A stretch of DNA of 64,000 nucleotides from Toxoplasma gondii ME49 (Eukaryota > Apicomplexa > Conoidasida > Eucoccidiorida > Sarcocystidae): positions 3,001,189 through 3,065,188 of the forward strand of contig NC_031475.1 of assembly GCF_000006565.2 (NCBI RefSeq), read 5' to 3'. Shown here in pieces: positions 1,228 through 23,483 of this stretch. The notes under the pieces were generated by a model. The model did not search any database and was not told the DNA's origin. It was given only the letters and a program-made list of their open reading frames with translations. The position numbers were made by a program, and so were the translations under genes. How positions within the stretch are numbered: the stretch's first letter is position 1; each line of letters begins with the position of its first letter.

Positions 1228-3984
1228 ATGCATTTCTCTCGCTCGACGCGGGCAGGACTCGTCCTGGCCCTCCTCTGCCTCTTCTCCCCTAATTCTTTCT
1301 CTTCAGATTCTCGCCTCAGCGGAGAAAGAACGACTTTCGCGCGTCCCTCGTTCGCGGACGCCACAGCCGCTCTCGTCCGGACCAGTCCAACCAAGAGCCA
1401 AGCTGCACAGACACCTGAGAGGGACGGCAACGACGAAGAAGATGTACCTCTCACAAGACCGAAGAAGCGAACGTTCCGTTCGCTCTCGCTGCCGAACCAC
1501 CGACGCAAGTAAGTGAAAAAGAGAGAGAGAAAAGAGAAACTGCCAAAGAAGGCGAGGGACGAGGGGGCGACAAGCCGGTGCTCTGGGCTGCACCAGACTA
1601 GTCTGACGAGAACAGGACTCCTTGGATCTTGCGCTCTCGCAACGAAAATGCATCGCGCCATCGCATTTAACTGGAGCACGAATCCTCCCCTCGCAGCCAA
1701 AAAGTGGAGAGACAGAAGGGAGAGAAAAGAACGCGGAGAGCAGCGGCAGCAGAGCAGGAGACTTCAGTGAGAAGGAGCGAAATGTTCAACACACAGCATC
1801 GGTGAAGGAGTGCAGAGAGAGAGAACTTCGAAAGAAAATCCAGTCGCGTCTGCCTCCCCCCAAGGAGAACGAGCAGGAAATCAAACTCGCCCGTGGACTC
1901 GAACCTGACGTCGCGATTTATCCGTGAACGCCTCTGCTGCCGAAGGCCGAAGAAGCGGAAGAAAGTTCCTCGAGCAGTTAGGGAGAAGCGGCTACCGGGA
2001 GGAGCGCGAGGGAGGTAACAAAAAGGAGAGGAAACGAGAATGGAATCAAGAAGATGCTGAGAAAAAAGAAGAGCCGCCACGGAAGAAGCTGCGGTGACCC
2101 ATGCGGCCCAGAAAGAAACAGGACGGAACAAAGGTGACAAGAAACGAGGGGGAAAACTCGAGAGGCGGAGCGAAAGATGAATCCGAAGGGCCCTTGGTTT
2201 TTCGTTTCCAAGTCTCCATCTTCTCATTTTCCCCGAACGAGGCAGGGGAACGAAGTCCATAGTGTGTGTTCGTGTGCTCTCTGCGTTCTCTTCCCCATCG
2301 TTGCTTCTCTCCTTCTCTCCCTGCTCAACGTCTCTTCTCTGTTCTTGCTTCCTTGCCTCTTCGCGTTGTCCGCGAACTGGAGCTCTTCGCTTCGCCTCTC
2401 CTCTCGCCAGGTCTCCTCTGGTTCCGCCGCTCGCTTTGTCTCCGCCTTCCCTTGGCGCATGTCCAACAGGTCGACGGACCTGTGCGTCTTCCTTCTTCCG
2501 GCGCTGTTGTTCGCTTCCGTCCAACGTTCTCAGAGGGCTGCGCTTCCGCTTGCACTCCCGCTCTTCTCTCTCTCTGGCCGCTGTCTTGTCTCTTATCGTG
2601 TCTCTTATCTTGTCTCTTGTCTTGTCTCTTGTCTTGTCTTTCCGGCCTGAGAAGGCGACGCACTCACTCCCGTGCAGGGAACGACTATTCATTGACTTTT
2701 TGCGTTGTCTCCTTCAGCAAGAGAGTGAAGCAAGTTCTTCAGTGGGGCGCCTTGGGTCTCGCAGTGCTCGCCTTGGCCGCCTCAGCTGGATTCGCTGCGA
2801 GGCCCGAGGCGCCGAAGGCAGCGCTGGAGGTGCAGAGAGTTCGCAAGACCGCTGCGGAGACCAGGCGGAAAGGCGCGCAGCAAAAAGACAAGCAGGTGCA
2901 GACAGTCGAGCAGAAAGGCCTCTTTCGAAGCTTCGAGCGGTCGTTCATTGACACAGTCAAAAAGCCTGCGCTGAATGTCCGCCGCACCGTTGACGACACT
3001 GTAAGCGAGACCCAGTCCTCAGCAGCAGAGGGAGACTAAGAAGGAGAGGAGATTAAACAAGAGTAAAACACAAGGAGCAGCGACGGTCGAGAGAAGAAGA
3101 CGAGCAGAAACGAGCGGAGAAGAAAGGAGAAGAACGAAAGGAAAGGAGGAGGAAGACTGAAAGAGAAACACAAGGTGAAAAACACCGCAAGGGAGACACA
3201 CGCCAAGACCCAACATGCCAGAAACTCAGATGGAAAAGCAGAGAAAATGCAACACCAGTTACTGATCATTCAGGTGTAAAACAGCAGTTGTGCCGGCCTG
3301 TTCTGGTTCACAAAGAAAACGCGATTTCAGTCTTTCACTCGGCCTCACTTCCCTTGCCCCCCCGGCGTTTTTTCTCTTCTTCATCCAGAAACAGTTCCTT
3401 TCCTTCCAATTCGTCTCTTGCTTGTTCGTCTACATATCTTCTTTGTCTCGTTCTCCCTCGACGTTTTCTTCGCGCGTCTGTTTCTTTCTTCCTCTGGCTC
3501 TTTGTCGTCCCCCTCGCTGCGCTATCAGCATGTTCAGAGCAAAAGGCAGATCCTGGAGGCCGCGTGAGAACGTCTTCTTCGTCCTCTCTCCCTTTCCGAT
3601 CTGAAGGAATGAACAAGGTAGACAGAAGAAAAATTACTCTGAAGAAGCGCGTCGTCGACGAGACGCCCACGCTGTTCTCAGCAAGAACGATGTGCCTGTT
3701 CTTGTCTCTTTTCTTTTATCCTCAGGTCTACGTGAGAAATAACGCCGCACACACAGATGGTCTGTGCTCTTCTCCGATGTCCTTCTCAGACCCAATACTT
3801 CCCCTTCTCGATTCAGAGAGAAGCATACACAAATTGATTTCGTAACATAGATATATATACACATATATATGTATATATATATATATATTCCTTACACACT
3901 ATCTTGGCAGATATCTATATCTATAACTATATCTGTCTCCTTATATAAATATATATGTATATAAATATATATATATATATATAA

Positions 3985-4017
<33 letters not shown>

Positions 4018-7000
4018 ATTAGGAGGTGACGGTGCCGCTGTTCTTCTGCTGTGTCTCAACACCACCTCTTGTAGCTGCATACACAAAGGTGCACAAGTCG
4101 CCTTGAGGCTTCCGTTTGCATTTTCATTAAGAACGTTGAAGGCGGCAGAGGACTGATGAGACAATCGAGGACTTGAGATTAAGTCTTTGCGTGGAAGGGG
4201 ATGTAGCACAGCAGGAGATGCAGCCTGGAGAAAAGGAGAAGAGAAGAAGAAGCGGCAAGGGAAAGCAGAGAAAGAGACACAGCGACTGGAAGTCAGACAC
4301 GAGGGCAGTTGCTCAGCTTTCGGTGCCCGACGCGCAACGATGAGAAAACTCTTCTCGCTCTCTCAGCGCAACTGCGGCCTGTGCATCTTCGTTTCTTTGC
4401 ATGCAGCAAGTAGGTAGTGGAGTAGAGAAAATCCAGAAGAAGAGACAGGAGGGAGAGGTGATCCAGACGGACAGAGGAAGCACCTGACTTGTGACGACCT
4501 GGCTCTGTTGACAGGCAGAAGTCAAGTAACAGAGGAAGGGAGGAAGCGCGTCTGCAGTGGCGAGGAAGAGTCTCTGAAACGCGGAAGACTTGCGCGCGCC
4601 TGCGTCGACTGTCGCTCCATGTTTCCTTCTTTCGCGAGCGCCTCTTCTCGCGGCTCCCAGGTCGTAGGTCAAGGCGTAGCTTCGTCGTTGCGCGACGGCG
4701 AGAGAAGAGTGACGCGAGAGGAAGAGAACGGCAGACGCTGTTCGTGTCAACGATGAAGGCGGGGGCTGTCGGAGAGAGCAGGGGAGGCGACAGAGGATTG
4801 GGGAAGGAAGATGCAGCTGTCTTCGAGACGTCGACCGAGAGGACATGCTGCTGGAAAAGCGAGAGACAAGAGGCACCGGTAGCACAGCCAGCAAGAGGGG
4901 GGGACAGAGGCACCCGCGGTTGTACGCACACCTGAAGGAACGCGTCGGGAGACAGGAGACAGGAACAGAATCTCTGAAGAACTGGAGAGTGTACCGACAC
5001 TGGCGAGAGTCGCCTTCAGATGCAGGGGACGTCTGAGCCCAAAGACATTAAAGATGGCACTCTAGGGGAGTTTCGCAGGACTCCTTCTACTGTCTCTTTC
5101 GAAGTCCTGTGAGCATGTCTTCATCTGTTCTCCCCACCTGCTTCTCTTTCTTCGGCAGCTGTGGAGCGTCCACGTCACGGCGCGTATCTCATGCCTTGTC
5201 TCCTTCGACTTTCCTGTCTCTCCTCTTCAGTCCAAGACGATCGTGAGTTTCTCGGCTTCTGTTACAATAGCGAAGGCGCAGGAAACCGTTCTCCAGGTGC
5301 ATCCTTTCTTTCTTCTACGTTTTTGTTTCGAGTGTGAAGAGGGAAAAACGCCGGCTGGCGCTGCATCGCTGCCACAGAGAGGGCGAGTGAAAACAAGCGA
5401 CTTTTCATTCGTTCATGTCTTTGTTTCCAGCATGTAAGCCTCCACCTTCGCATTGCTGTGAGCTTCTCGCTTGGTGCGCTTCAGCTCTCTCAAAACGTTT
5501 TCGTTTTCAGCGTTCCCCTTTCCTTTCTGGGACAGACACAAAGATGTTCGCCCGCGCTCTGTGTCTTCGCTGCGGGATTTCTTTCTCTTTCCCTGCTGTC
5601 AGATGTCCCTTACCTTGTTCCATTTGTTTTCTCTTTCTCTTCGCTCTCGCGGTATCAGAACGTAGGCGAGTGCGAAGAAACAAAGTGGACAGCGGAAGCT
5701 GTTCTTCAAAAGACAGTGCTGTTCCAGAAACAGCTTCGTTGAGCTGGAAGAAAAAACGTGTAACAGTGGGTTGACAAGACAGGCTACAGATCTCTGAAGA
5801 AGTGGAGACAGCATGTGATGCCCTTATCTTTGGAGATATCCGTGCATCGATATCTACGCACAGAAACAGACACGATGAATCAACTAGACTCCTGTGGAGC
5901 CCGGCAGACATTTACATCTCTCTGTCTCTCTATATCCACATACCTGTCTACATCTGAAAGTAGAAGTGTACACTTGCTACATATACATATATATATATAT
6001 ATATATATGTGGACGTTTGTGTGGAGATGTTCACAAGTCTTGAGAAAAAAAGCCTCGTCTTTCAACTGAGGAGTGCGAAGGAAGGGCGTCTGCTGTTCGG
6101 CGTTCTCGTTCAGCTGGTGAGTTCCAACGGTCTTGTCAGACTTCTCACTTTATGTTTCTTTGCGTCGTTCTCGAGCGAGTTCCGCTCTGTCCCAGCACCA
6201 TGCCACCGTACCGTTTTCGTTCTGTTTTCTTCGAATTTTTCACTGTGATGCTCTCGCGCCTCGAACAAGGAATCCGTCTCCCCCCGGCGTTGTGTGCCCT
6301 TCTCCTCTCTTCTCGCCTCTTACCGCTCCCACTAGTGCGGCGAGTTTCAGCTGTGGCGGTTGTCGAAACGGTTGTTTTTGATCGATTTTCCATCTGTTTG
6401 CCGGTTCGGTCTCCTCCGTTCGACAGCTGTGTTTTGTTTCTCGAGGTTCTCCGTCCGTCCTCCCCCTTTGCGAAGCGTTCTTCAGCTACGGTCAGCGCTT
6501 TCTCTCTTTCGCCCCCGTGAGAAATGTATCTTTTTTTCTACGTCTTCCTCTTTTTCGGGGACGTTTCCCCGACCAGCCTCTTGGGTGGTTCTGAGCGTCG
6601 CGCTGATTAACCTTGTGTAGTGCAGGAGATGAAACGTTAAATGAAGTCTACATGCCTTCCTTCGTTCCCGGTCTCCCTCTTGTTTCTCTCCAACCCAGTC
6701 CGTCTTGTCGTCTCACCTCATTCTGTTCTCTCCCTAATTTCTCGCGAGTCCTCTTCGACTTCTTGTCTCGACTGTCCACCGTTTTTCGCCTGCCTTTCTT
6801 CTGTCATTTTTCAGAGAACGGTGAGTTCCCGAAGAAGCCGGGTCAACGCCTGAGGCGTTCTCGGCATTTCCGATTTAAACACGGAACGCCTCTTGCGACC
6901 TGCCGCAGCCTTTCAGGAGGCTCCCACCCCTCGACGTCGTCGCTCGCTGGTTTCCTCTGAATGTTTCGAGGGACAGCTGCTACAAGAATTAGGAACAGGC

Positions 7001-10000
7001 CTCAAGAGAGTGCCGTTCGAAGGGGGCGAAGAGGCGGGAGCGCGAGCAAGGAGGCGAGGGGAGAGAGAGGTTCTCGAGGGAAGACCGGGAGAAGTGACTC
7101 GAAGCCTGGGAGGAAAACGCGCGAAGAAAGCCGACATTCAGTCAGGAAGACTGAAAGCGCCGGCTTCTCTCGCAGCGCTGCAACAAAGACCGCGAGAGGC
7201 TTCGAAACAGACGCACGCCGAGCAACTCGTTACAGAAACTCTCCATAGAACGGGATATAGAAAAAAAAACTGCAGGAAAAAAGAGAAGAGAAAACGACGA
7301 ACGAAAGACGAGGCAAGCGACTACGATGAGTTCTCAAGGCTGAAGGCAATCGTTTCTCCGTGGCGGTTTTTCTTTCGCATGCTCTCGGAAAAGAACGCTC
7401 AGAGCAAAGCGAAAGGAAGACCGTTTCCACAGCTTTTGTGCATTTCCGCAAGCTCGAAACACACAAGCGCTGGACTCGGACTCTCTCCAGTGGCGTTCTC
7501 GCTTCCGACGGACATCCGACAGTGGAAGGAACTGGCGAAAAAGCTCCAGCCGTGCTTGAGGCTGCTGCGGCCTTCATGTCTTTCTGTAAACGACGACTGC
7601 ATGAGTCCGAGGCGAGGCGTCGTCGCACTTGAAGCGTTCCTGTTTGCCGATTTACTGGGTTCCCTCAGGCTCCCGAAGCGGTAGGTGGAAAAGGCGCTAA
7701 AAGGAGTTTGGAAGAGACAGAGCTCTGAACAGACGCGCAACGCTTCATCGGAGAGGAGATTCACGAGAGAGTCTGAGGAAGAGTTGGAAGGTTCGGGGGC
7801 GATGACAAAGCGTTCGAAGGACGCGAAGGGAAGAAGACCAGGAGGAAATGAGAAGAACAAAGAGAAACAGACAGGGACGGTGGAATCGGGAAGCAGTAGT
7901 ATATATCAAACGTTGAGGAATTCAAGTGAGAGTCAGGGAATCGAAAGTTTGCGAGAGAAGGAAATCGTAAGGTGACAAGACACGAAAGACAGGTTTGAGG
8001 GGTCCAGAGAGGCAACATGCCAACGGTGCAGGTTTTGAGATCATTTGCCTCGACTTGGTCTTCTCTCAGGAAGTAAGAATCTCACATGCATCTACCTTTT
8101 CCTGAAAATATGTTTCTTTCTCACTCGGTTTCACGTTGGGAGTTCTCACGTTTTCTCTTCGACTTCTCCCTTTGCTTTTTTAAGTTCGCGACCTGCAGCA
8201 CTTAGACGCGTGGAAGTCGGAAGACTGGACGGTGCTTTCGAGCCTTCTTTCATGCAGATTCAACTCGCAAATTTCGTTTTTTCATTTCTCAGATTCAGTC
8301 GCTGGTAAGGCCTCTCTCTCGACGTATGCTCTGCCGCGCTTCAGGATACCTTGAAACGTCTTTCGGGTTTCGTCGGTTCAATGCAAAGAGACCCGCGTAT
8401 CACCTAAAGTGAATGCATCTGAGTATATCATTCAAGACAAAGAACAACCTCTGGGCTAGAGAGTGCTTCGAGGTTTTGAACGTCATTTCTCATTCACGGA
8501 GGTGTGCGTTTCGTTTGTCGACTTTTTCTTGTTTGATTGTGCCTTTTTTCAGCTGATTAAGTTGGTACGGGTCTCCATTTCCAGCTTTCTGCCCAGTGAG
8601 AGTGTTAAAGAGAATCCTTATTTTCATGAGTAGAAGAAGGCTTCCTCATTTATCGAGTAACCTTACCAAGAACGCGATTCTGTCCGCTGAGTCCTTTTCT
8701 TCTCTCTCTCTCCTGCATGTGTCGAGCTCTCTATTGTATCTTTGCCTCTGTGTGGTGACAAACAACCTGGAGGTCACGAAGCTGTCGCCAGATGTATCAC
8801 CTCGATGATTTCAGAATCCTTATGTACTTGCGTACTTTCTCGAAACTGTCGACGTGCGAATGCCTGAAACAACCACCATTCAATTTGACATGCGCCGTTT
8901 CTTCAACTCTTTTCAATTTCGATGGCTTCTGCGTACGTTTTTTCAGCGAGAGAAAGTAAGATTTCCAGACTAAAAGAGACTGGCGGCCGTGTATCTCCAC
9001 CGGACCGAAGCGAAGCCCGCTCACCTCTTTGCAAGCGTACAAAAGACATTTCGAGACATCCAAAAGTAACCATTTCTTCCCCGGAGAAGCGTTTGAAAAG
9101 ACGAATGACTTGCAGAGGCTCAGATGCTGTTCGTAGCAAACGTTCCTATCCAAAAAGCGAAAGAATGATCTGCCGGCAAATATATATATATATATATATA
9201 TTTGTATGTGCATATATGTATTTATGATATGGTATACTTATCTATCTGTACATATCTAAATGTCTATAAATTTCTATGTAAGTCAGTTTATACGTTTGTA
9301 GCAGTGTTTTCATCTCTGTAAAAATTCCGCACTTATTTGTTCATTTATACCCTGTATAACAGTGTGCAAATGCATATATATATATATATATATATATACA
9401 TTTGTGTAGATGTATGCATATGCATGTACACGCACATGTATTAACATGTAAAGCCACTGAGATGTGCCTGTATAACCTGTTCTGCCGGTTTTTCGTGGAT
9501 TCTCTGTTAATGCCGCATTTTCATTTGCTGCGCATGAACTCAAAATTTGCAAACTAAGTTCAAAGGTGAAACTGGATGTACCTGCCACCGTACTGCGAAA
9601 CCAGTGAGGACTTATCGATCATCGTCGCTGGAATTTCCTGCCCGAACTGTTTTCTTTTCTCTCCCCGGAATTTCTTCTTCAGCTTCCCTCAGCCGTGAGA
9701 TCCCGATGTCCTCGCTTTGGTCGGTCGGATTCCAGAGTAAAACCATCTTTTCTTATTTCAACCGAAAGGGCGGACGGATCCTGTGCACCTTAAAGGCTTT
9801 CCTTTGACTTTTGTTTTCTCCTTGTCTCTCCCCATGCCGTCGACCTTAACGACAGCGAACGCCTGTCGCTCCCTCTCTCCTCTGCCTCTCACGTCTGATG
9901 CTCTGTGAGCTCAGACGTCCGTCGCCTCGCGAACGCTTCGCTCGGAACCGGCGGCGAGAATAGGCGGCGGCAATACGCGTCGATCAGTCTCGGACACTCT

Positions 10001-12465
10001 GGACATCTGACGCAGAATCGTGCAGCGAGTGAATCTGTCGCAAACGCGTTGCCGGGGGGTTTCCTGGCTTTCCTACGCACTCCTTCAAGGCCTGACATCG
10101 TACAAACTTCCACACTTCCTGTACGTTTCGCACTCAAGTTTTCTTCCATGCAATCGAATTTCTGGTCGTTACCTGATCGTCTTTTCTCGACCGAACCTTC
10201 GTCAGTGGCTGCTGTAGAGTTTACGCGAACATTACCGTTTTCCAAGGCACAGCCATCTCTCGTCTCGCTCTCGAGTCTTCCTGGCGGTTTAAAAGCCAGG
10301 AGAAAGAGGGGAAAATGACTCGAATCGTTGTCTGCGAGACACAGAGCCTCCCACAGAGACTCGAGCGCTCTTGTTCGGCGTTGCACGTCACCTATGTTTG
10401 AAAAAAGACAGCGAGGGAAAACTCTCCACACGGCCGCTCTCGTTGGGCGCCTCTAACAGAAACAAAGCGCTTGCATGACCAGCTTTTTTCCAACACTGAG
10501 GAACATTACTGTGTTGATTGTTCCAGAAGAGATGTGAATCGCGTCAGCAAAACGATGTTGCCTTGTCGCTTGCCTTCCATCTCGTGCTTGATCGTCCTTT
10601 GGATTTCTTCTCATCTTTCCGCGCGCTTGGTGACGGTGGACTTCAACGAAGAATGTAAGGTGAAAGAAGGCGAGGCTGCCTCTCTTTTGCTTCCACCACC
10701 TCGCGATAGCCGTACGGCATATCGAGTCGGTCTTTCTTCTCCTTCCCCAACAGACGGCACATCGATTTCTGACTGCCTAAAGAGCCTTTCAGCTCGCGTG
10801 CGCCAAGCCACAGACACACATGGTTTTATAGACGCCTAGGTATTGATGTATACAAATGTATGTAGAGTTGTTTCTGGGTGTTGGCGGCTCTCCGAAGGAG
10901 AGTGGATGTGCACAGACTGTCGAATGCAAATGTTTCTTGGGCGCCTGCGTAGAGAGGTTTGCTTCGCGCCATATTCAGGAGCGCATCTGCTTCGACTCCC
11001 GTACTCCGTTACCTGTTGGTGGTTGTATATTCACACAAAATTCACATAGACGTCTTTGTAAACAGGTCCGTCTGTACACTGACCTGGTCCTGTGTCTAGG
11101 GTATCGGTGGAAACTTGAAAAACAGAGGAGCGAGTGTTTACATCTGCCTGTCTTTTTTCTGCAGCCTGTAAGATGGGGATAGAGCTGCTGTGAAAGGTGA
11201 GGAAGCGCGGGATATGCGCTCGCAATGCGGAGAGACTTGCAGAGACTTGGGAGAATCGCGGCATGGTCTGAGAATGTAAACCCGCAACATGCCCATATTT
11301 AGGGTGAAAAATGGCGACATACGAAGTTCAATGTTTTCTCCACCAGCAGGCAGCAACGCTGCGTCTGGTCTCTCTTTGGTGTTTTGCACTTCAAAGGAAG
11401 AAGTTTGAGAGCTCCTAGATCGTATCAGAGAGGAGCGAAGAGTTTGGCCCTGACCCCTGTGCTGTCACAGGTTCCGTCTGTCCTTTCCTGTTCCTTCTCG
11501 TCCTCCTCTCAGATGGTGAGGCCTGTGAAAAGGCGACGCTTCTGTTTGTCTCGGTTGCTTCGGCCTAGATTCGACAGAATTTCCAGATCGTTCACAGCAC
11601 AAAAGTAATCTTTTTTCGCCGGAATCGCATTTCGTTCTCTCCCCAGACTGTAAGATACCCATTTAGGCTCAGCCGATTTCTTCACTTCCAAAAAATTCTT
11701 GTTTTCTTGGTGGGAGTCGGCAGCCAAGACGAGCGAGAACGAAGCGCAACAGGTTGAAGGAAGCAGAGACTTTCTCGCCTTTTGTCTCCCCATTTCTTTC
11801 CCATTTCTTTCCTCTTTCGTCCGATTCTGCCGCCTCGTGGCTCCACTCCTGCTTGTGGGTCCCTTTTTTTATTCTTTTCTTGCTCTCTCTTCCACCTCAC
11901 TCTCATGTCCCCTCTTTCTCTGCAGCTGGTGAGGCGCCCACACACAGGAGACTAGACTTTTCAGAGAAAAAACACAAAGAAGCTGCGCTGCCTGCACATC
12001 TTTCGAGAAACAGCGAGACTGTGGCGAAACAGAGAGAAGGAGGCGACACAGCATTTAGCCCGCGAAAATAACCGAGAGAAAAAAGGCGAAAGAGATGATC
12101 TCTCGACGGTCAGAGCCCAAGCATCTTGCGGCGCGTCGACCAGAATTCTCGTTTATTTGCTGACCGCTCCTGGCATGTTTCAACCGAGAGAAAGATTTTG
12201 AAATCAACCCCTCGCTATGGGGAACGTGACATCCATCTCCTCTTTTGACTCACTCGCTTCTAGCCAGTGGTGTGTCTCCTAAACAGGCAGTACGTCTCTG
12301 CGCTCTTTCTTTCGATTTTGTCTTCGTCCCCATCGAGAATTCTCTACTCGCAGCAGCGACCCTCGAACAAATCACACACACGTACACATGTGTGTACATA
12401 TTTAAATATATAAACTTATATGTGTGCGTTTATTTATATGCATCTATATAACATGATATAAGCGA

Positions 12466-12500
<35 letters not shown>

Positions 12501-13741
12501 TTCAGCATTCAAGAAACAGTTGTTGAAGACGGGAGACCATCGTCGATTGGTTTTCCGTGCGAGCCCCGAGGCCTTTTCTTTCACTTCTTTCATCTGAAAA
12601 TCGTTCCCGCTTCTCACCCTGAATATGCCGGTTTATTGCTGTGGTGTACCTGTCCTCTTCAGCAAGTACGTACTATCTCACCGAAACTGTCTCACACTGT
12701 GTAGGCTTGTCCATATGTGTTTTTGTGTCAGTCTCTTTCCTGTTTCGTCCTCTTTCCACTCGTTGATTCGCATCATAAATAAGTGAAGAAAGACGTATTT
12801 TCATGTATGTATATGTATATCTATATGTATGCACATCTATGTATGGATGCATGTGGATTTGGTGTAAGAATTGTGTATACAGTTCCAAATTTTTTTCTTA
12901 CCTCTGGCCGTCTTCTTGACGCGTCTTGGATATTTTCTCTTTTCAGCTGCGGCGTTTGATTGCCTTCTTTTTCTCTTCAGAATGTAGGTTGGCCAGAGAG
13001 CCCATCGCACCGGCACAGCTACTCGGTAGCACCACGAAACTTTTCGATTTTTCTCAATCTTCTTCTTCCTCGCTTTCTCGCTCCGTTTCAGGCAGTAAGC
13101 TTCCGATTTTCAGGCTCTGGAAAATGGAAGCTCCAGCGCATGCAGAGAAAGACAGAAATGTGTTTGCCGGAACGACGTGCCTCTCTGTAATCGAACGAGA
13201 CAGTTCTGCTCGTTCGACTGTTTCTCCCGCGCTCTTTGTGACGGTCGCGAGAGATTCGTGGGTTTCCAAACAACACGGATTTCTAGAAACTTGCACTCCA
13301 GGATGGATTGCGCCGTTCCAGGTTCTCGCGTCGTTGGACCTGAAAAGCGTCTTCGAAAGAAAAGTATGAGAGTGCGGGGGGAGACACTTGAGGGAGAAGA
13401 GAGACGTCAAACTGCTTTGCAGCTGCGGTGGGCTGCAAGCGCTGTATCGCGTCCTTCTTCGCTCGAGATTCGGCGTCGTGTGGACGCGTTCCATCTGCGA
13501 AAGTGTCAAACCTCACCCGGACTCAGCTTCGAGGGAAAGAGCTAAAATAAACGTTGAAGGAACTTCACCCAGTCTGTCCGCTGTGTTATCTGCTGCATCT
13601 GCAGCTGGTAAGTTGAAGAGCGCTTCGCAGAGGCAGAGAAAGCAAGACAGAATGCGATCAAGGGAGGTAGAAGAAATCGGCGGCACAAAGAGGATGAGGA
13701 GCAACAGGTGATGGGGGAAGAAAGTGAAAAGGGTGATAGAG

Positions 13742-13772
<31 letters not shown>

Positions 13773-14788
13773 GAGAAAGTTCAGAAAAGGGATGAAAGGC
13801 AGACAGGAGAGGGGAAGAAAAGGAGCAGAGAGAGGAAAGAAAAACAGAGAAAGGAAGTGGAGTCTCGCGGGAGTCCGGTGAGGATGAGAGTGCAGCTGTT
13901 AACAGAGAGGATGAAAAAGGAACGTATCAACGGACAGACTTGCACTCGTTCTTCCCTGCCGTTTGCTTCAGGATTGTAGTCACGCTCTGTGCCTGTCTCT
14001 CTGCAGGCTCTCGCAGGCTTAGGCTTTGCGGCAGTAAGTCACTCGGGGAGCGAACCTCGTCGCGGGTCGTCTCGTCCACCCTTCTCAAGGAACGCCGAAA
14101 AAGAAGCTCAGACAGAGTCGTACTCGGGAACATCTCACGCATCCAGCGTTTTCGGGGGAGCGATCGATATCTCCAGAGACAAGCAGTTCGAAAACAGCAG
14201 CAGAGGAGATGAGGAAAGTGACCTGCCGGCAAATCTAGCCGCTTGTTCTTGTGCCATCGCAACAGACGGACGAAGCCTCAACGGAAGGAGCGACACTAGA
14301 GTATTCGTTTTCCTCGTTCGCAGTTGATTGGAGTCGTTTGCCTTCGCTCTGTACGGAGAAACACGCACTTGCGAAAGGCGACAGACAATGGGCGAAAAGA
14401 AATGTTTTCCTCTAAGTCGGAATGCGAAACGAAAGAGCAGAAAGAGCGCTTCGCTGTGTCAACGTCTGGCGCCCTGCCCTCGAGCGTCTGTACAATTCAG
14501 TACGTAAGATCAAAAAAAAGAAGACTTTTCTGGTTTTCGACTTTCTTTCTGCGCATTTGGAGACAGCTTCCGGGAACGGGGTCCTGGGCAAGGTGCAAAC
14601 AAAACACACATGCTTGCGTTTTCGTAAATCCCAGTAAGGTCTATCGTGGCAATGGCATCCCACTCAAGTTCAGCGTACCACGAGCGTAGTTTATAAGTGT
14701 ATTCTTTGGTTTCCCCTCGAAATACATCTAGAAAGCACTGCAAAAGTAGTGGAGCCTCCCCATGTGCACCCGTAACCAACTATTCCAT

Positions 14789-14824
<36 letters not shown>

Positions 14825-14903
14825 GAATACATATATATGTATATCGGAATATATGCATGGACAAATATATAGAGACACACACAAATTTATACGTGTACAA
14901 CCA

Positions 14904-14941
<38 letters not shown>

Positions 14942-17900
14942 CAAGCAGGTTCATGTACCCATATATACGTGTCGAGGGCGAGGGTTGCAGATGTTTCTGT
15001 ATATGTGAATGTAAGTTTGTGAATGCAGACTATGTATGGATTTGTCTCTGTGTGTTAGAGGCACAAGTGCGTGTGAAGTTTACGCGGGATAAATGTAATC
15101 GTTTTGCTGTGGCTGGGCTTCTCTCGGCTCTGGGTTCATCAGGCAGTGAGATTTGTTGCGGCTTTCGGAGAATCCGACTAAGCAAAGCAGATAGCATATA
15201 CATGCCCGGTATTACGCATTCATATATATATATATATATATATAAATATGTATGTAAATATATTTACATATAGATGTATATATACCTATTTTCACACTTG
15301 TTTATTTTTATCCATATACATGTATATATTTGTCTGTTTGTCATTTTTACTTTTGTCTATCCAAAACGATTTCTGCTTCAGTGTTTGAAGTTCTTCGGGA
15401 TTCTGGCTTATATTCAAAATGACATTTTTCATGTTTTTCTGTCTCTTCTTTTGTGCGCACACTGCCCAGCTTGTAAGCCTTCTGCTCACTCACCTCGGAC
15501 TTTTACTCTTTTTCTCGGGTGTTGTTCAACTTCCGCGGACTTTGAGTCTCGTTGTCTTCTTTTCACCGCTGTTTCGTTGTTTCCTCCGCCTTGTCCTCTT
15601 GTTTCTTTTATCCTTTCCCTTTTTCTGCTCGATGTTTCCACCTCAGGTTTCTTGTCTCCTCCCCTTCGCTTGCTTCTTTTCTTACTTTCGAGCCTCTCCC
15701 TTTTCCTGTTTTTGCTTCCCTTTTTTTCGCCTTTTCGCTTCCACACCTCGGCAGCAATTCCTCCAACACAGTTGAGGACCGAGTCTAGTTATTCTTGTTC
15801 ATGACATTTCCCTATATAGATGGACAAGGTTGTCTCTCTTTTTCTCTCTTCCTATCTATTTATATGTATACAGACAGATGCACGTACTGTTGCATACACC
15901 ATTCATGATTCATGATACCTGGAGGCAAGACCTTCGCTAGAGGGTTGCCAGCTCAAGCTGTTCTTCTCTCCGCATCGAGCTGTTTGTGAGAAAAGCCGCT
16001 GAATCCCCGGCTGTTAAGCGTGAGTGTTCCTGTCTGCAGTATGTAGGTTTCTTTGCTTTCTTATTTCTATTCAGGGTTCATGGAATGTGACCCAACAGCG
16101 AGGGAAATGGGTTGTCTCTGGGTTGTTTTCTGCGGGAAGCGGTTGCATTCTCTATCACTTTTCGGCGTGTTTTCGCTTCTTTCTTTCTCTTCGACAGACG
16201 TTTTTTCTTTTTATATTCTAGAATTCCTCTCTGCTTGTTTTCTTCCTGCTTCTGTTTCTGGAAGTTCTGTTCCCAACGCTTGAAGTGGATGGCTGCATCG
16301 CCTTAAGTGTTCCATGTTTTAGTCATCTCGACTCGTCGTCTCAGTCCACTGCTCTTTCTTTCCTATCTCTTCTCTTTCTCCGTCTCGCAGGCCAACAAAC
16401 ACTCAGTAAGAATATCCACTTTTTCGCGTTTCTCGAAAATTTCTGCATGGGGACTCTCCACTCGTCTAGCCTTCAAACAGAGGCTCCCAACCACCAAGCA
16501 GGCAACACATGAAGTATTCTGCTTTTCGAAATCTTTCGCTCCTTCTCTAAAGGAGTTACAATCTCCCAAGTCTCTTCCTACCTCTCGCTTTGTAAGCTTG
16601 TATACCGATATATTCACAAATAAATATAATATATATATATATATATCAATATATATATATATACATGCATATGTATTGATCTAGCAGTCATGAATGTATA
16701 TTCATATATATATATATATATGGATATACGTGCATATGGAAATATACCATCTTTACTTCTACAAAGGTTTGCCGCATATAAACATATGAATATATATATA
16801 TATATATATATATAGCGAGGGAGAGAGACATATATACATATATAGACATATACATATATATATATATATATATATGTATCCACCATAGATTCGTAGTTAT
16901 GTGTTTTGAGGCTAGGAGTATGTGCGATACGTGGACGGGATGAGTCTGTTGAGTTTTTCACTTTTTTCGTGCGTTATCTCAGTGGTGTTTTGTCGATCAT
17001 GTTTTCTCAACGCAGTGTTCTGCTCTTTCGCTTTCGTCTGTTTTCAGTGGGTGAGTCTCCTTTGAGTTAGCGGCGAACACGAAAGCGTTTGCCTTTTTTG
17101 GTCGCCGTTTCATATCGGTGGCGTTTCTCAAAGATCCTCGTCCTGCTGCATGCTGGACCTTTTTAATTTTTCAGAACGTGAGGGCCTCCACGGTTCACTC
17201 CCTTTTCTCGCGTCTCCCAGCGCAAGAAAGAAACATCAGGAACTCGATGCTGGCAAACAGACGACGCAGGCACCACTGCTTCTGCGACAAACATTACTTT
17301 GTTCCACGGGCGAGAACGAAACGTCGTATTGCCGCAGAAGGAATACCTCATTTGTCGATAGATGCTGTCCTGTGAATAACGGAAAGCGTTGTGTCTTTAC
17401 TCCAGTTCTGTCTCTGTTCGTCCTCGGTGTTCTTGCAGCCTGTAAGAATGGGGTGTTTGTGATACTGTTTCGATGCGACAGAAACATGCGGGGAAACAAA
17501 GAGAACAGACTCCTTTCAGTCTCGGGATGCTTTTCGACACACTTGAATCTCTGGATCAACTTCGGAAAGGAATTGAGTTTGGGGACGGGGACGGCGCAGA
17601 TATCAGGCTGAATTTCCTCAAAAGTCGAACCTAAACGTTCAACTGCCACGTTACTGCAGGCTGAGTTTCACCTGATTGGGTTGCAAATTTTTTCTTTATT
17701 TGCGGCTTGTTTTGTTTCCTTGATTCCGCGGTTCCACTTGTTTCTTTTCCCCGTATTCAAACTGTTTCCGTATGTTTGCATTCCGAGGGAACTGTCTACG
17801 AGTCTCGTTGTGTTTTTTCTTGACAGCCGTCGGTGAGTTTTTGACCCAAGAACGCGAGAGAGAGGAACATGACACGAGAGGACGGAGGGGACAGACGCAC

Positions 17901-20900
17901 ATGTCGTGGAAGAAAAGTAAATCGGTCTCACTGTCGCTGGCCTGTTGCGACGCACCGCCAAGAGAAACTCTTCTTCTCTTGAACGAATTTGGATGGCGTG
18001 TCTGCCCTGCTTTCTCAAACCGCGACTGGGGTCTCTTCCAGGCGCATGTTGCTTTCGAGAAAAACTGCAAACTTTTCTCTCACAAACAGAGGAAGGACTT
18101 GGCGCGTGGCTGAGAGAGATGAACCCCACAAAGGGCACAAAACGAAAAAACAAGAGATGGTCGCAGGAGCTCTCGTTTTCTGACTTCTTCTCCAGCTTGT
18201 AAGGCGTATACGACGTCTTGGCTCTGCCTCCGTCCTTTGTGCTGTTGGCTGCGCTCCCTCTGCGCTTTTCCTTTCTCGGCTGTCGTTGTGAGTTTTTGAT
18301 ATAATGCGCTACCGTGGTCCCCACACTTTGCTCCTTGACGTATTCTAGGCTGAATCTTCTTTAAAGTTTTCCTGTCTTGGTTTTTCTTCTCATTGGTTTG
18401 CGAATCGGCGGAAGAGGCTAAGAAAGGTGATAGAGTGTCGGAGCACTGTTTCGTTTGTTTCTTTCGCTCGCTTTCTCTCTCGAACGTTCCTCTCTGCTTC
18501 TTTTTCTCCATCCTATTTCCACGTCTTTCCTTGGCGCGCCCCTGTAGGAAGTAAGGAGCTGAGTGACTTCAACTCTGCACTAAACTCAAAACTGAACGGC
18601 GAAGCAAGACTTTTGGGAGAGGAGAAAGACACAAACGTCGCAGAGAAGCAGAAACAAACACTCCTAGTTCCAAACAGTCGAGCGTGTCAATGTTTCAGGT
18701 GCTGCCCTGAGTGTTTTGACAAACAAGGCAAATAGACCCCCGAAACTTCCCCGCATTTGCCTTGTTCCTGGCGTTTTTGCTGCGGTCAACGAACAATTCT
18801 GAAGGAAGTAGGAGTCTTGGAAACGAAGGCGACGAAACGGAATTTACGTAGATTTTGGACTCCTCGGGATGCGTCGTTTTCTCAGCTCCACTGCCGAACG
18901 TCGTGAACTAAGCGTCGACATGCGACACAACGAATACACGGATTGTTTTCAGCGCAGTTGCCCGTATACAGTTATATAGATACACCGGCGGAAGGACAGA
19001 GCCGTGTCTCGCTGCGGCCGACAAGACTAGAGAAAGAATCGTTTCTCAAACGTTTCGCTCGATGGACCTCCAAGGCGTTTTCGGGCAACAGAGCAACGTA
19101 ACCTCGCTGGAAAAGATTCGCTTCCACTTCCCTATGTATGGTAAATGTCTTGCAAAGATGGATTTAGATAGGCACATGAACGGGAGCACATCACGCATGC
19201 ACTTAAGTCGCTTCCAACTATCAGGCGCGCGGCCAGGTGTAAAAACAGGCCCTTCCACGGGTCTGTGTTCTTCTCAAGCTTGACGGCGGAGTGCTTCGTT
19301 CCGTGTGAATCTGCGCCAGATCGTACGTTTTCCTTCTCCGAGAAAGGCAAAGACTACACAGCAACACGGACGCAGTTTACTGCAGGTTGCTGTACATGAG
19401 TCATCGCGCCTCGGTGGGGGTGAAGACCCTCGAGTAGAAAACAAAGAAACTGTCGAGTCAACACCTTCTGGGATTCCACTCCTTCACATTGCCCTTTGGT
19501 GTACCTACGGAGAAACGTGGATCCGCCGCTTCTGGTTTGAACTCAGCGCAAAGACGAAGGTCGCATCCGTCGACTTTTGTGGAACTCCTTGCGTCTTTTA
19601 CCGCGCAACCATTTGCCCTTTTCCTCTTCTGCAGAAAGTAAGTGCAGAAAAAGCGTAGGACGGAAGGCCGTGACGACGTCAACGGTTTCTGCTCTGTCAC
19701 AGCAAAGAGGCAGTGTGATCCCTTTGTGTTGCTCGCGAAATCGGCTCATGTTTGAAAACAGCTTCCGTCGTCCTCTAGGTCTGTGAATACACACATGCAC
19801 AGACAATGCAGTGCCCAACGATCAGCAACGTGGAAGGGATGCATCAACGAAACTTACGTATCTCCACAAGTACTTGTCTGGTTTCGCTCTCAACAGAAAA
19901 GTCACTCTCTACGCATTCAAAATTCAGAAGTAGTTTCACATATATATATATGTATATATATATGTATATATGTATATATATATATGTATATTTGTACATA
20001 TGTAAGGGGGAAACGTGACACGCGTGTAGCTCTGTTGGTTTCACTGCTCCAGTTGGATATTTTTTATATCCAACTTGTGTCGCTGAACGCGCCGTCACAC
20101 ATACGGGCGTTTTTCCGCATATTCCAGGCGATTTCTGGCCTCTCAAAACGATCCGCAGATTCCAGGTAGCTGCATGCAGCTAACGAATTCCATCCCACAT
20201 GGAGGAACGAAACACGACCGAGAAGTTCACTCTCAAGAAGCCGGATCTCCTCAGCGAAATATGCGGCCCTTTGTTGTGTTTCCTCAACTCACTGGAGACA
20301 AACGGTGTGTGCATAATTCTTTCCTTTTCTCTGATGTTGTCCTTCTGTGGTTCTCAGCAAGTACGTCGTGTCTCCCACCGTCTGACAAGCGTTTCCGTTG
20401 CTCCTCAGGTCCCGCGAACCAAGACCGACGTATTGATTGCATGTGTGTCTGTGCACCTTCGCTGTTTTTGCCTGTGCCTCATCTCCAGAATGTACGAAGA
20501 CGCATGTGTCTCACAAGTAGACAACCTGAGTTTTATAAATAATCCAGCGGTGTTGATAAAGAAAAAGGATAGGTCGCGGAACAGACACAGCAACGACAGG
20601 TGTGATGGGGGTAAAAGAACAGCACCGGTTGGGTTTCACCACACAAGCAGATTGGATTTTTCTCATTCTGCGCGTCTTTCGTCTTCTCCCGTTTTCACAT
20701 CATCTCTTCTCAGTTGGTAGGTTCCACTCCAGTTCAGCGCCATGCGGTGTGATTAAAAGGAAGCCCAGTTCGTAGGGAAAAAGCATATTCGCGAGAAAGC
20801 ATGAACTGAGGATAAACTGTCTATCTGCGTGCACCCTAAAACGATGTGCAGATTTCGTTCGATACGCCTCTGCTTCCACCTGGTTACGTTTGGTGAGGAA

Positions 20901-21262
20901 CAGACGGACCGCATAAAAAGCGTTTTGCCCCGTGACAGTTCTGGCTGTACATCAGGGACAGGCATGAGTAAAACCGAAGCACACAACCCGGTGTTGGCGA
21001 CGCAGTTCGTTCCACGCTGTTCGTGGTCCTGTGTGCTCCGACAAACGATTTGCGATGTGGAGAGATTCCCGTTCTTTCGGAAGACAAATGGATACTTTAG
21101 AAAGATTTCAAAGATGTGTCTTCTCTTCGCTGACTGCGAGTACGCACTTGCGACCCAGGAACAAGACCGTGCCTCCTGGCCTGAGGGATTTTTCTTGGGT
21201 GTTTGTCACGGTTGTCCGATGACGCTTTTCCCTCTGCTTTCTTGATTCAGGACAAAATATAA
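1228..21262 (+). CDS. Micro-exon gene: secreted/membrane protein of about 282 aa in about 43 exons, 27 of them a single codon
   Basis: No family is recognised. Exon 1 (1228-1508) starts at the ATG of MHFSRSTRAG and encodes a signal peptide (hydrophobic about residues 9-20) and a basic, Ser/Thr-rich stretch. Exon 2 (2718-3000) joins it in phase 2 and carries a membrane segment (about residues 100-120, LQWGALGLAVLALAASAGF) and a charged, Lys/Gln/Arg-rich region. From the GTAAGC donor at 3001 every further exon is phase 0. About 41 exons of 3-42 nt follow (see the three block entries), ending in GAC AAA ATA TAA at 21251-21262. Together they add about 94 residues: an amphipathic, Leu/Lys/Glu-rich part, a second membrane helix (about residues 242-256) and a polar tail. 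Signal peptide plus basic region could be an apicoplast bipartite leader or a secretory protein; this is inference. Introns are about 50-1470 nt. A few micro-exons are uncertain, and one or two may be missing. Confidence 0.72.
2583..2640 (+). repeat. 12-bp tandem repeat TGTCTCTTRTCT in intron 1
   Basis: About five near-perfect copies of a pyrimidine-rich 12-mer lie about 80 nt before the acceptor of exon 2 of the micro-exon gene. It may add to the polypyrimidine signal. It appears on the opposite strand as a KRQD-type repeat in spurious open frames. Confidence 0.8.
3529..3563 (+). other. Unresolved candidate exon of the micro-exon gene (35 nt as bounded by visible splice sites)
   Basis: A pyrimidine-rich tract and CTATCAG precede CAT at 3529, and a GTGAGA donor follows at 3564. 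In phase 0 the segment reads HVQSKRQILEA, which fits the helical character of the neighbouring exons. However, 35 nt (or 26 or 14 with inner CAG acceptors) would shift the frame and create an early stop in the downstream micro-exons. Either it is a decoy, a 33-nt exon with a non-GT donor, or part of an alternative transcript. Confidence 0.3.
3848..4018. repeat. (TA)n microsatellite cluster in a micro-exon gene intron
   Basis: Two long TA/TATG-type tracts (about 3848-3888 and 3942-4018) lie in the intron between the VY and Q exons. They are simple-sequence DNA with no coding or RNA-gene signal. Confidence 0.9.
9180..9400. repeat. Two (TA)n tracts in a micro-exon gene intron
   Basis: TA tracts at about 9180-9204 and 9374-9399, with AT-rich sequence between them, sit between the REK and LPSA exons. 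Confidence 0.85.
12467..12498. repeat. (TA)n microsatellite in a micro-exon gene intron
   Basis: Uninterrupted TA tract between the single-codon exons at 12287 and 12663. Confidence 0.9.
13748..13772. repeat. (GA)n tract
   Basis: Purine dinucleotide run in the intron after the single-codon exon at 13605; the surrounding 200 nt are also purine-rich. Confidence 0.85.
14780..14938. repeat. (TA)n tracts in a micro-exon gene intron
   Basis: TA tracts at about 14790-14840 and 14908-14936 lie between the Y exon (14501) and the A exon (15143). Confidence 0.85.
16625..16880. repeat. Cluster of five (TA)n tracts
   Basis: Repeated TA/TATACA tracts fill about 250 nt of the intron between the ANKHS exon and the W exon. 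Confidence 0.85.
19938..20004. repeat. (TATG/TATA)n microsatellite
   Basis: Imperfect TA/TG-rich tract in the intron between the K exon (19635) and the Q exon (20358). Confidence 0.85.
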
Positions 21263-22333
21263 GCCAGCTACACATAGGAAGGGGAATCGTCAGCTCACAA
21301 TGACCCTGCTACCAATCGCCTCCTGCCAAAACAACGAAGCGAATGCGCGGTTGTTCCCTATCCGCGAAGGAAACAGCAACGCCACGCAGAAATTTGCCTT
21401 CTACGTACAACGTTGCACTGTTGCCACCCACCTCTGCGCGCCTATTGTTCACGTGTCACAAAGAAATACCCGACCAACGCAGTGCACAGAGATGGTAGTA
21501 AAGACCGAGTCCAGAACGAGCACTCGCTTTTATTACAGAAACGAGGTAGTGTTTCCGTCCGTCCTTGTCATGTGAACGTGTATCCAAACAGTCGCCCGTG
21601 GATCAACAATCACAAGAAAACGTGGGCAACTGAATGAGATACACAATGATTCGCTAAACCGCATCCGTCTCCCTTCAGGAATACCCTGAACCGTTAACAC
21701 CAACAGCTACCTACTGACCGAATGAACCAGGCGACGTCTTTGGGGACAACACCGGCCACACCCATACCTTTCTCGTGGAACGTCTACGTTCAGTTCAGTG
21801 AAGCCTGGTGGTTGCAGTGTTGTTCTAGGATTTCCGCTTTCTTCTTTTGGAAGAACGGCTGATCTCGACTTTCCGTCCTTCCAAGAACTGTGCTTATGTA
21901 CTGAAACAAGGGGCGCTGGCTGCGAATTTGAAACCTCACGTTGCTTTGTTTTTCTGTTGTCGTCAGGGGCCATGCGGCTCCTCCGGAACAGTCGCCTCTA
22001 TTTCATGCCGAAGGGTTATAACACACCTATTCAACTCTAATTCGCTTACGGTCTTGAACCGTTGAACGCTAGGTTTCTGGATACGCGCTGCGACGATAAA
22101 CCGCAGACACGCGATACGCACTACCTCGACGGACAAGTCCTCTAAAGAAAAACCGTCACGCATGAGGCTGCCCATCAACCAGGTTTTCTCGGCTGGCGCC
22201 AGCAAACGGGAGGTCTTCTTTGCAATCCTACTCGTACTATTTATTATCTTGCACTGTCAACAGTTCTCCCACACCTTTACATTTTCATGAGGTTCCTCCG
22301 TGTTCCCCTGCCCCACGAACGGCATCGCTGCCT
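21263..22333. other. Convergent intergenic region (3' flanks)
   Basis: The micro-exon gene ends at 21262 on the + strand and the small heat-shock gene ends at 22334 on the - strand, so this stretch should hold two 3' untranslated regions. An open frame at about 21252-21575 would continue the last micro-exon if it were read in phase 2, but that phase gives a stop in the upstream exons. No other feature is supported. Confidence 0.6.
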
Positions 22334-23483
22334 CTACTTCACGCTGATTTGTTGCTTTGCGCCCCCTGAATCCTCGACCTTGATCGTGACACGTAGAACG
22401 CCGTTGTCCATTGCCGCACTGATTCCGTCGGGCTTGTAATTACTCGGGAGCTGGAACCGGCGCGCAAAATAACCGGACACTCGCTCAGTCAAAATGTTCT
22501 TTGTTTTGCCATCGTCCACTTTCTCCGCTTCTTTCGAGGTCTTCTCTCCTGCCAGGGCAGCACGGAGCAACGCGATTCCGTCGTCATGCACGAAAAAAAT
22601 CACCTGGTTAAAGCGGAATCTTCAGCGCTGCCTGCTGTCCCCAGTTCTATCAGAGAAAGCTTACGTGCCATCTTCATTCGGCTAAGCTTCTTGTGCCTTT
22701 TTTGTAACATCTACAACTGGGGCTACAAGTTTGCACTGCAAGATTCCTTTCCTTCCAGATCCATTTTCTACTACCACAGTTTATTACGATAGCCACAGGT
22801 GCCGAGACAGTCAACGAGCTTTTGTCCTCAGTGCAACATGTCCACTGAACTCAAATACGTTTACGTCCCCGATACTCGTGTACAGTGGTGTATGTCTTCT
22901 GTGCCGGCGCCTCGTCAGCAAGCACGTTCCGATAACGCATGCACGTTGTGCATCTGACGGATACACCGTCGACAGACGATTTACCTTTGATAACGATGGC
23001 TCCGTTGTCGACTTCTATGGTTACGTCATCTTTCTGAAGACCTGGCAAGTCAGCCAAAATAATCATTTCCTTCTTTTTGCTGTCGAACTCCACGTCGACT
23101 CTGGGTCTCCACGTGATGTCCTCCATCATTTCGTTTGCGGTGAGGGCCGTCTCGAACAACATATCGTCGATGGGATTAAGACCGACTCCACCCCAAAACT
23201 GCACAGATGCACACATCTGTGGCACGACCATCCCTCCTACTCAAGGCGTAACACAAAGGGAAACCAGTATTACATCCAAGCTCCTATTTTTCGGTTGTAG
23301 CATGCGCCTCTCGTCACGGCTACACTCCGGTACACCGAACTTGCCGCTATCGCCGCCCGTGAGCTTTTCCTCTTCGAAAATCCCAACTTTTCCCTTCAGG
23401 TCCACCATCGCTGTCAGTCTTACCGGGGGAGGGTAGTACGCCAGAGCAAACGGGCTTACTTCATCCAAATAGTCTAGCTGCAT
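22334..23483 (-). CDS. Small heat-shock protein (HSP20/alpha-crystallin family), 3 exons
   Basis: ATP-independent chaperone of the sHSP family, predicted 212 aa. Exons on the - strand: 23483-23274, 23198-22985 and 22548-22334; joins are phase 0 and phase 1. The start is the ATG of MQLDYLDEVSPFALAYYPPP; an in-frame TGA lies just upstream. The N-terminal arm is unusual, with a YYPPPV motif. The alpha-crystallin domain runs from about residue 97 (ITWRPRVDVEFD) through ILADLPGLQKDDVTIEV and the second splice (VIKG|EKTSKE) to the signature GVLRVTI near the C-terminus, followed by a short tail. Toxoplasma has several sHSPs, including a pellicle-associated Hsp20 and bradyzoite BAG1; the N-terminal arm suggests the Hsp20-type member, but this was not checked. 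The first intron is only 75 nt. Confidence 0.85.

Follow-up and report, generated by a model that had tools for sequence, protein, structure and literature searches.

Predicted runs of mostly single-codon micro-exons in a Toxoplasma gondii membrane-protein gene and in at least five similar loci

The locus and its predicted unit series

The window analyzed here is a stretch of 64,000 nucleotides from Toxoplasma gondii ME49 (contig NC_031475.1, positions 3,001,189 to 3,065,188 of the forward strand; coordinates below are those of the window unless another locus is named). On its plus strand lies a gene that starts with two ordinary exons and appears to continue as a long series of minute exon-like units, most of them a single codon. 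The two ordinary exons are matched by a public T. gondii "putative transmembrane protein" of 200 aa (P0001, the representative of 10 sequences, on which our statements about its end rest), with differences at 6 of 188 residues, and, at 47%, by a Neospora protein (P0002).

From exon 2 to the stop at 21262 our list contains 38 in-frame units, 37 of them internal and donor-bearing. Twenty-six are 3 nt long, six are 12 nt, three are 6 nt, and there is one each of 9, 15 and 27 nt. Together they make up 219 nt, or 72 residues plus the stop, for a joined predicted protein of 260 aa. As the original prediction had it, all of them (every one a multiple of three) join in phase 0 with exon 2 and run to GAC AAA ATA TAA at 21251-21262, and the acceptors are CAG in 37 of the 38, with a single TAG at 18548. 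Each unit sits between a YAG, mostly behind a pyrimidine tract, and a GT donor, and the 38 introns range from 108 to 1470 nt (median 382). The count of single-codon units comes to 26 rather than the 27 first claimed, and the tail to 72 rather than 94 residues; of two longer exons proposed at the same time, the 21-nt one corresponds to a candidate at 6496 that falls below the site-score cut, and a 42-nt one is seen in neither candidate listing.

The features are as follows. All micro-exons without the word weak or possible are from the in-frame list and pass the site-score cut ("cut"); the final exon, from the same list, has no donor.

1228-1508, +, exon 1: 281 nt; ends in phase 2; donor CAA/GTAAGT; hydrophobic N-terminus (signal peptide by eye); matches P0001
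2718-3000, +, exon 2: 283 nt; phase 0 at its end; donor /GTAAGC; codes for a coil and, by eye, a membrane helix; matched by P0001 and by Neospora P0002
3529-3567, +, terminal exon of the public T. gondii model: P0001 ends HVQSKRQILEAA, then stop; possible alternative short isoform
3726-3731, +, micro-exon VY
4407-4409, +, micro-exon Q, weak (listed, below cut)
4661-4663, +, micro-exon V, weak (listed, above cut at low score)
5231-5242, +, micro-exon SKTI
5431-5433, +, micro-exon H
6114-6116, +, micro-exon L
6815-6820, +, micro-exon RT
7669-7680, +, micro-exon APEA, weak (listed, below cut)
8070-8072, +, micro-exon E
8293-8304, +, micro-exon IQSL
8553-8564, +, micro-exon LIKL
8947-8955, +, micro-exon REK
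9683-9694, +, micro-exon LPSA
11165-11167, +, micro-exon P
11513-11515, +, micro-exon M
11647-11649, +, micro-exon T
11926-11928, +, micro-exon L
12287-12289, +, micro-exon A, weak (listed, above cut at low score)
12663-12665, +, micro-exon Q
12981-12983, +, micro-exon N
13092-13094, +, micro-exon A
13605-13607, +, micro-exon L
14007-14033, +, micro-exon ALAGLGFAA
14324-14350, +, possible micro-exon LIGVVCLRS, 27 nt, outside the joined tail (in frame; score 18.3; in the earlier chain search)
15143-15145, +, micro-exon A
15470-15472, +, micro-exon L
16040-16042, +, micro-exon Y, weak (listed, below cut)
16391-16405, +, micro-exon ANKHS
17048-17050, +, micro-exon W
17175-17177, +, micro-exon N
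17439-17441, +, micro-exon P
17827-17832, +, micro-exon PS
18196-18198, +, micro-exon L
18548-18550, +, micro-exon E, sole TAG acceptor
19635-19637, +, micro-exon K
20358-20360, +, micro-exon Q
20489-20491, +, micro-exon N
20714-20716, +, micro-exon L, weaker donor GTAGGT (listed, above cut at low score)
21251-21262, +, final coding exon, GAC AAA ATA TAA (DKI and stop)

The listed series is a choice, and the true tail could differ from it by a few units, because about six listed units are weak and candidates of similar strength, the strongest at 14324, were omitted. Thirty-four of the 37 donor-bearing units score above the cut; those at 4407, 7669 and 16040 fall below it, and those at 4661, 12287 and 20714 pass with low scores. 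In-frame candidates above the cut at 14324, 14501 (Y) and 19320 (I) lie outside the joined tail, further above-cut in-frame alternatives overlap listed units, and 5659 is another weak candidate outside the list.

Controls for chance and genome-wide searches

YAG-NNN-GT is a short motif, and such a series could in principle be a chance pattern in pyrimidine-rich introns, selected by eye. We counted single-codon units with a site model (a weight matrix of splice sites trained on the window's own units) at scores of 16 or more. Across 3001-21300 (18.3 kb) this model finds 22 on the sense strand and 0 on the antisense strand, and 0 in each of 20 first-order Markov shuffles; the remaining 42 kb of the window hold 1 on the plus strand and 0 on the minus strand. 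When the training set consists solely of 136 units from three other loci, the model gives 17 sense and 0 antisense units in the same region, 1 and 1 in the remainder, and recovers 27 of the 37 window units. Applied unchanged to those other loci, C3, C10 and C14, the window-trained model yields sense and antisense counts of 39 and 0, 19 and 0, and 19 and 0, respectively. Shuffle means were 0.00-0.25 across ten sequence sets.

Under a uniform rule for all loci (pooled model, score of 14 or more), the sense strands carry 84 single-codon units at C3, 34 at C14, 31 at C10, 20 at the window gene, 10 at C4 and 6 at a second C14 locus, the opposite strands none except for one at C4, and the rest of the window one per strand.

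The genome-wide pattern searches covered the 65.28-Mb genome, with the reversed pattern as control. The C3, C10 and C14 loci came from one single-codon pattern (111 matches vs 45 for the control); the C4 locus and the second C14 locus were added by further patterns and small regional checks. The five loci besides the window are a lower bound: the census is incomplete, and some of the 111 matches are unlisted. A second single-codon pattern also exceeded its control (22 vs 8). Six others gave 25 vs 27, 30 vs 53, 23 vs 20, 16 vs 14, 35 vs 32 and 75 vs 129, so that, with six of eight patterns at or near the level of the reversed control, there is little genome-wide excess of the pattern; it is the clusters that stand out.

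That small overall excess is what a chance origin would lead one to expect, but the matches cluster on one strand at a few loci, with the frame bias and avoidance of stops described below. The strand and shuffle controls already refute the chance reading, and we give it practically no credence.

Frame, stops and composition

A chain search with no frame rule, in which internal exons of up to 60 nt were counted and the score had no coding term, nevertheless returned mostly frame-neutral exons. On the sense strand it found 34 short internal exons at the window gene, 70 at C14, 118 at C3 and 40 at C10, of which 31, 67, 105 and 35, respectively, are multiples of three and 22, 34, 89 and 30 are single codons. 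On the antisense strand it found 4, 8, 7 and 3, with 0, 2, 2 and 1 multiples of three and no single codons. Larger exons that it proposed in the window (such as 3389-3563, 10527-10654, 14324-14503 and 19897-20001) were not accepted, because the chain score has no coding term.

The composition of the single-codon units points the same way. Among 164 such units in four loci, collected with no stop filter, none is a stop, vs 11 of 305 weak YAG-NNN-GT triplets taken as background (3.6%; chance of none, 0.0024). Cysteine is likewise absent (0 of 164 vs 5.9% in the background), and leucine is enriched (34 of 164, or 21%, vs 8.5%). The phase-0 stop counts of our earlier chain search are no evidence on this point, because that search dropped candidates with a phase-0 stop beforehand.

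Public models at the C14 locus

At C14 (TGME49_217720), public models carry some units of this kind into protein. The Hammondia model HHA_217720 aligns to the locus through exons of 104, 16, 25, 18, 6, 12, 12 and 57 nt, with 75 of 83 residues in agreement between Hammondia and T. gondii from exon 2 to the 57-nt exon, and the T. gondii model TGRH88_059680 joins, among other pieces, AMRF, TLSV, PQF, LQTM, PTV and VQGL (9 or 12 nt each). With the exception of EKKV (12 nt at 16200 of that locus), every 6-12 nt unit in these two lists had been predicted by our chain before the models were compared, and none of 40 shuffles aligned as well (over stretches of 35 residues for Hammondia and 25 for RH88). 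We assign TGME49_217720 and its Hammondia and RH88 relatives to the same class as the window gene, with ordinary exons plus some 6-25 nt units in the public models. Along with the further loci, at least five in number, these models strengthen, at the level of predicted exons, the original proposal of a gene with some 40 micro-exons that are mainly single codons.

The predicted C14 chain is much longer than any of these models: of its 65 units up to position 43249 of the locus, 10 in full and 2 in part lie within the three public models, and the remainder are unannotated there. The public ME49 model (P0003) joins a few small exons and then runs on into intron sequence. The C14 annotation (P0003 and RH88 P0005) needs redoing.

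Relationship among the loci

Exons 1 and 2 were compared for the window gene, C14, C3 and C4 (the C3 and C4 exons being predicted here); C10 and the second C14 locus stand outside this comparison. The four genes share a layout in which exon 1 codes for a hydrophobic N-terminus and ends in phase 2, the next exon encodes a helix, and frame-neutral micro-exons follow on the same strand. The helices and candidate signal peptides were assigned by eye, with help from hydropathy at C3 and C4 only, and the helix exon ends in phase 1 at C14, C3 and C4, vs phase 0 at the window gene. A hydropathy rule flagged the first exon of C3 and, with other settings, that of C4, but not those of C14 and C10, whose signal peptides were assigned by eye. 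Because all four combine a predicted exon 1 of final phase 2 with a helix-coding exon next to it, we propose a common ancestor as the probable origin of this gene class. C14 and C3 match each other at E 0.002 across an acidic stretch when low-complexity filtering is switched off.

Two other candidates were considered. A C11 protein match (E 0.08), which we take to be an unrelated coiled-coil gene, was dropped after 6 kb showed no micro-exon run. A genome-wide 12-nt pattern (18 matches vs 21 for the reversed control) led to L019 on the minus strand (C4:2261001-2269000), where exon-like units of 9, 12, 15 and 24 nt follow one another with only one single-codon unit at a score of 14 or more; it is perhaps a milder relative of the class, and lies outside the six loci.

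The units might instead be copies of a repeated cassette of exon plus intron, multiplied in tandem. Two loci offer examples in its favor: C3 (minus strand) holds four 15-nt units reading VAPTP, 381 nt apart, in a tandem repeat, and at the second C14 locus (L021, minus strand) a 319-nt stretch that includes the 6-nt unit CGGGAA occurs twice, about 1.6 kb apart, with 97% identity between the copies. Within the window locus, however, a blastn comparison of introns (E 1e-6, plus strand only, with masking of low complexity) detects no similarity, and between loci it gives a single 60-nt match. The window introns are not copies of one another, so we reject a repeat origin there and consider it most improbable as a general account of the units. 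The VAPTP repeats themselves look as if a micro-exon-like unit had recently multiplied together with its intron.

Interpretation and alternatives

Judging from sequence, we think it highly probable that in the window gene, one of at least six like loci, about 37 frame-neutral exon-like units downstream of the two ordinary exons, 26 of these units being single codons, are spliced serially into a C-terminal tail, codon by codon. Most likely such predicted serial splicing reads out the tails at all these loci, which together would form a new class of micro-exon genes. A 3-nt exon would be too short to engage its acceptor and its donor at once, since it could not hold both splice-site complexes, and each intron would therefore need a splicing round to itself. 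Once a codon has been added to the growing exon, its downstream donor would stand at the new exon end and could start the next round, in a process resembling recursive splicing with one codon left behind at each step. Because every unit is frame-neutral, any of them might be skipped with the frame kept, and the products might differ by single residues. The product would be a membrane protein of the secretory route, with a hydrophobic N-terminus, the exon 2 helix and a tail with a possible second helix (by eye and simple hydropathy).

A number of observations weigh against this interpretation. P0001 terminates early, in the exon at 3529-3567, and P0002 also stops early, with an unrelated end; the joined tail is absent from both. 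We had considered the P0002 end as a set of conserved micro-exons and rejected the idea, as it fits the window units no better than shuffles do (55 of 100 were equally good). A protein database search with the joined tail found no homologue. The whole joined window protein matched only T. gondii and Neospora proteins (among the 7996 candidates with the most shared words, which were scored), no Pfam family scored above the cut-off for the joined peptides, and the PDB gave no match better than E 0.09 for the window protein and the C14 tail, the two queries used. The order of residues in the joined tails, when unit order is shuffled, gives no clear protein-like signal: the hydrophobic stretch of the window tail was equaled in 583 of 5000 shuffles of its 37 units over 15 residues and in 1180 of 5000 over 19, so the sensible membrane helix that had been cited in support is no evidence. 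We had expected a designed membrane helix to show in the order of the joined tails, and it did not; of 3000 shuffles per locus, 2305 at the window gene, 129 at C14, 2725 at C3 and 314 at C10 attained the observed mean helical moment.

The frame-free chain also adds to this side, being in phase 0 for only 28 of 34 exons at the window gene, 38 of 70 at C14, 32 of 118 at C3 and 22 of 40 at C10; it leaves phase 0 because it takes up exons that are not multiples of three. When its exons are joined, a single stop arises at C14 and six arise at C3, in junction-split codons, which this search does not check. At C14, the RH88 protein was matched at only E 0.81 before spliced alignment, and its model, which begins partway through the series of micro-exons, includes intron sequence. 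Finally, the family structure is seen in four of the six loci, and paralogy by sequence is marginal (E 0.023 for the window vs C14 and E 0.016 for P0001 vs P0004 at C14, over helix and coil); P0002 and P0004 show no relationship (E 14).

One alternative to serial splicing into a tail is that the gene ends early, in the exon at 3529-3567 or by read-through to a stop near 3039, and that the units are stepping stones or decoys for splicing in a long 3′ region that never enter the protein. The end of the public T. gondii model and the missing homologue of the tail are as this account would have them. Stepping stones, however, need no frame, and the units are mostly multiples of three, avoid stops and cysteine, and are rich in leucine and alanine; moreover, units of this kind are part of the protein in other models at C14, and the ends of the public proteins differ between T. 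gondii and Neospora. We regard an early end as improbable.

Another alternative is that the units are spliced, but combinatorially, with each transcript taking a different subset to give many tails that differ by single residues, as schistosome micro-exon genes (MEGs) do by skipping. The frame neutrality of all listed units would permit this, the lack of a clear signal in residue order is expected if fixed order or full inclusion is unimportant, and at C14 both the Hammondia and the RH88 models join neighboring units yet leave out the strong predicted units KLKK and LIQA, an omission that also counts against full serial inclusion. Omission from a model need not mean skipping, however, because short-read aligners lose exons under about 8-10 nt (PMC7821500), and 34 of the 37 donor-bearing window units score above the cut. 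Combinatorial splicing is a real possibility, though not the reading we prefer. Equally tentative is a broader version of our preferred reading, serial splicing into a tail: that at least six membrane-protein genes have tails built one codon per exon, with serial splicing acting as a per-residue assembly line and inclusion or skipping giving a vast tail repertoire.

Comparison with known systems

In recursive splicing at ratchet points, an acceptor is directly joined to a new donor, and a long region is removed stepwise with no residue left. The window units resemble ratchet points in their acceptor-then-donor layout and in the stepwise removal we propose, but instead of YAG joined to GT, as in a strict recursive splice site, they have 3-27 nt between acceptor and donor, one to nine codons with a coding bias. 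Because residues are left behind, this is not recursive splicing in the strict sense.

Vertebrate neuronal microexons are often frame-preserving and occur as isolated cassettes among normal exons, unlike the dozens in a row at the window gene. They are like the window units in size and in their loss by aligners: they can be as short as 3 nt, ordinary RNA-seq aligners lose them, and sensitivity falls under about 8-10 nt, according to one report (PMC7821500). Such losses by short-read aligners may explain the early ends of the public models.

A report on the MEGs of Schistosoma mansoni (PMC4015677) describes a similar run of very small frame-neutral internal exons, which at the window gene are predicted exons. 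The first exon of schistosome MEGs encodes a signal peptide; the hydrophobic N-terminus of the window gene is a candidate for one, by eye. Schistosomes belong to a different phylum, and among the 7996 scored candidates we found no sequence relation between MEGs and the joined window protein. Micro-exons there make up most of the coding sequence, whereas here they supply 72 of 260 residues, confined to the tail, and single-codon exons dominate (26 of 38). Skipping is shown for schistosome MEGs in that report (PMC4015677), whereas the window units are known from prediction alone. Among the matches listed from the open-access literature there is no paper on such genes in Apicomplexa, in keeping with the original remark that no described apicomplexan gene of this sort was known.

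If transcripts bear it out, dozens of consecutive single-codon exons would, as far as we know, be extreme for spliceosomal introns, and these genes would be a natural system in which to study the recognition and ordering of exons that are below the size needed for exon definition. There is also a practical side: the public models at the window and at C14 cut the protein early or read into introns, and if the same holds elsewhere, tagging, knock-out and proteomics experiments on genes of this class have used the wrong protein ends.

Other features of the window

Several introns between units contain long TA-rich simple repeats (for example at 3840-4020, 9180-9420 and 16620-16880). Downstream, at 22337-23240 on the minus strand and thus convergent with the micro-exon gene, lie two pieces of a gene with an HSP20/alpha-crystallin domain (Pfam PF00011), which is probably the bradyzoite antigen BAG1.

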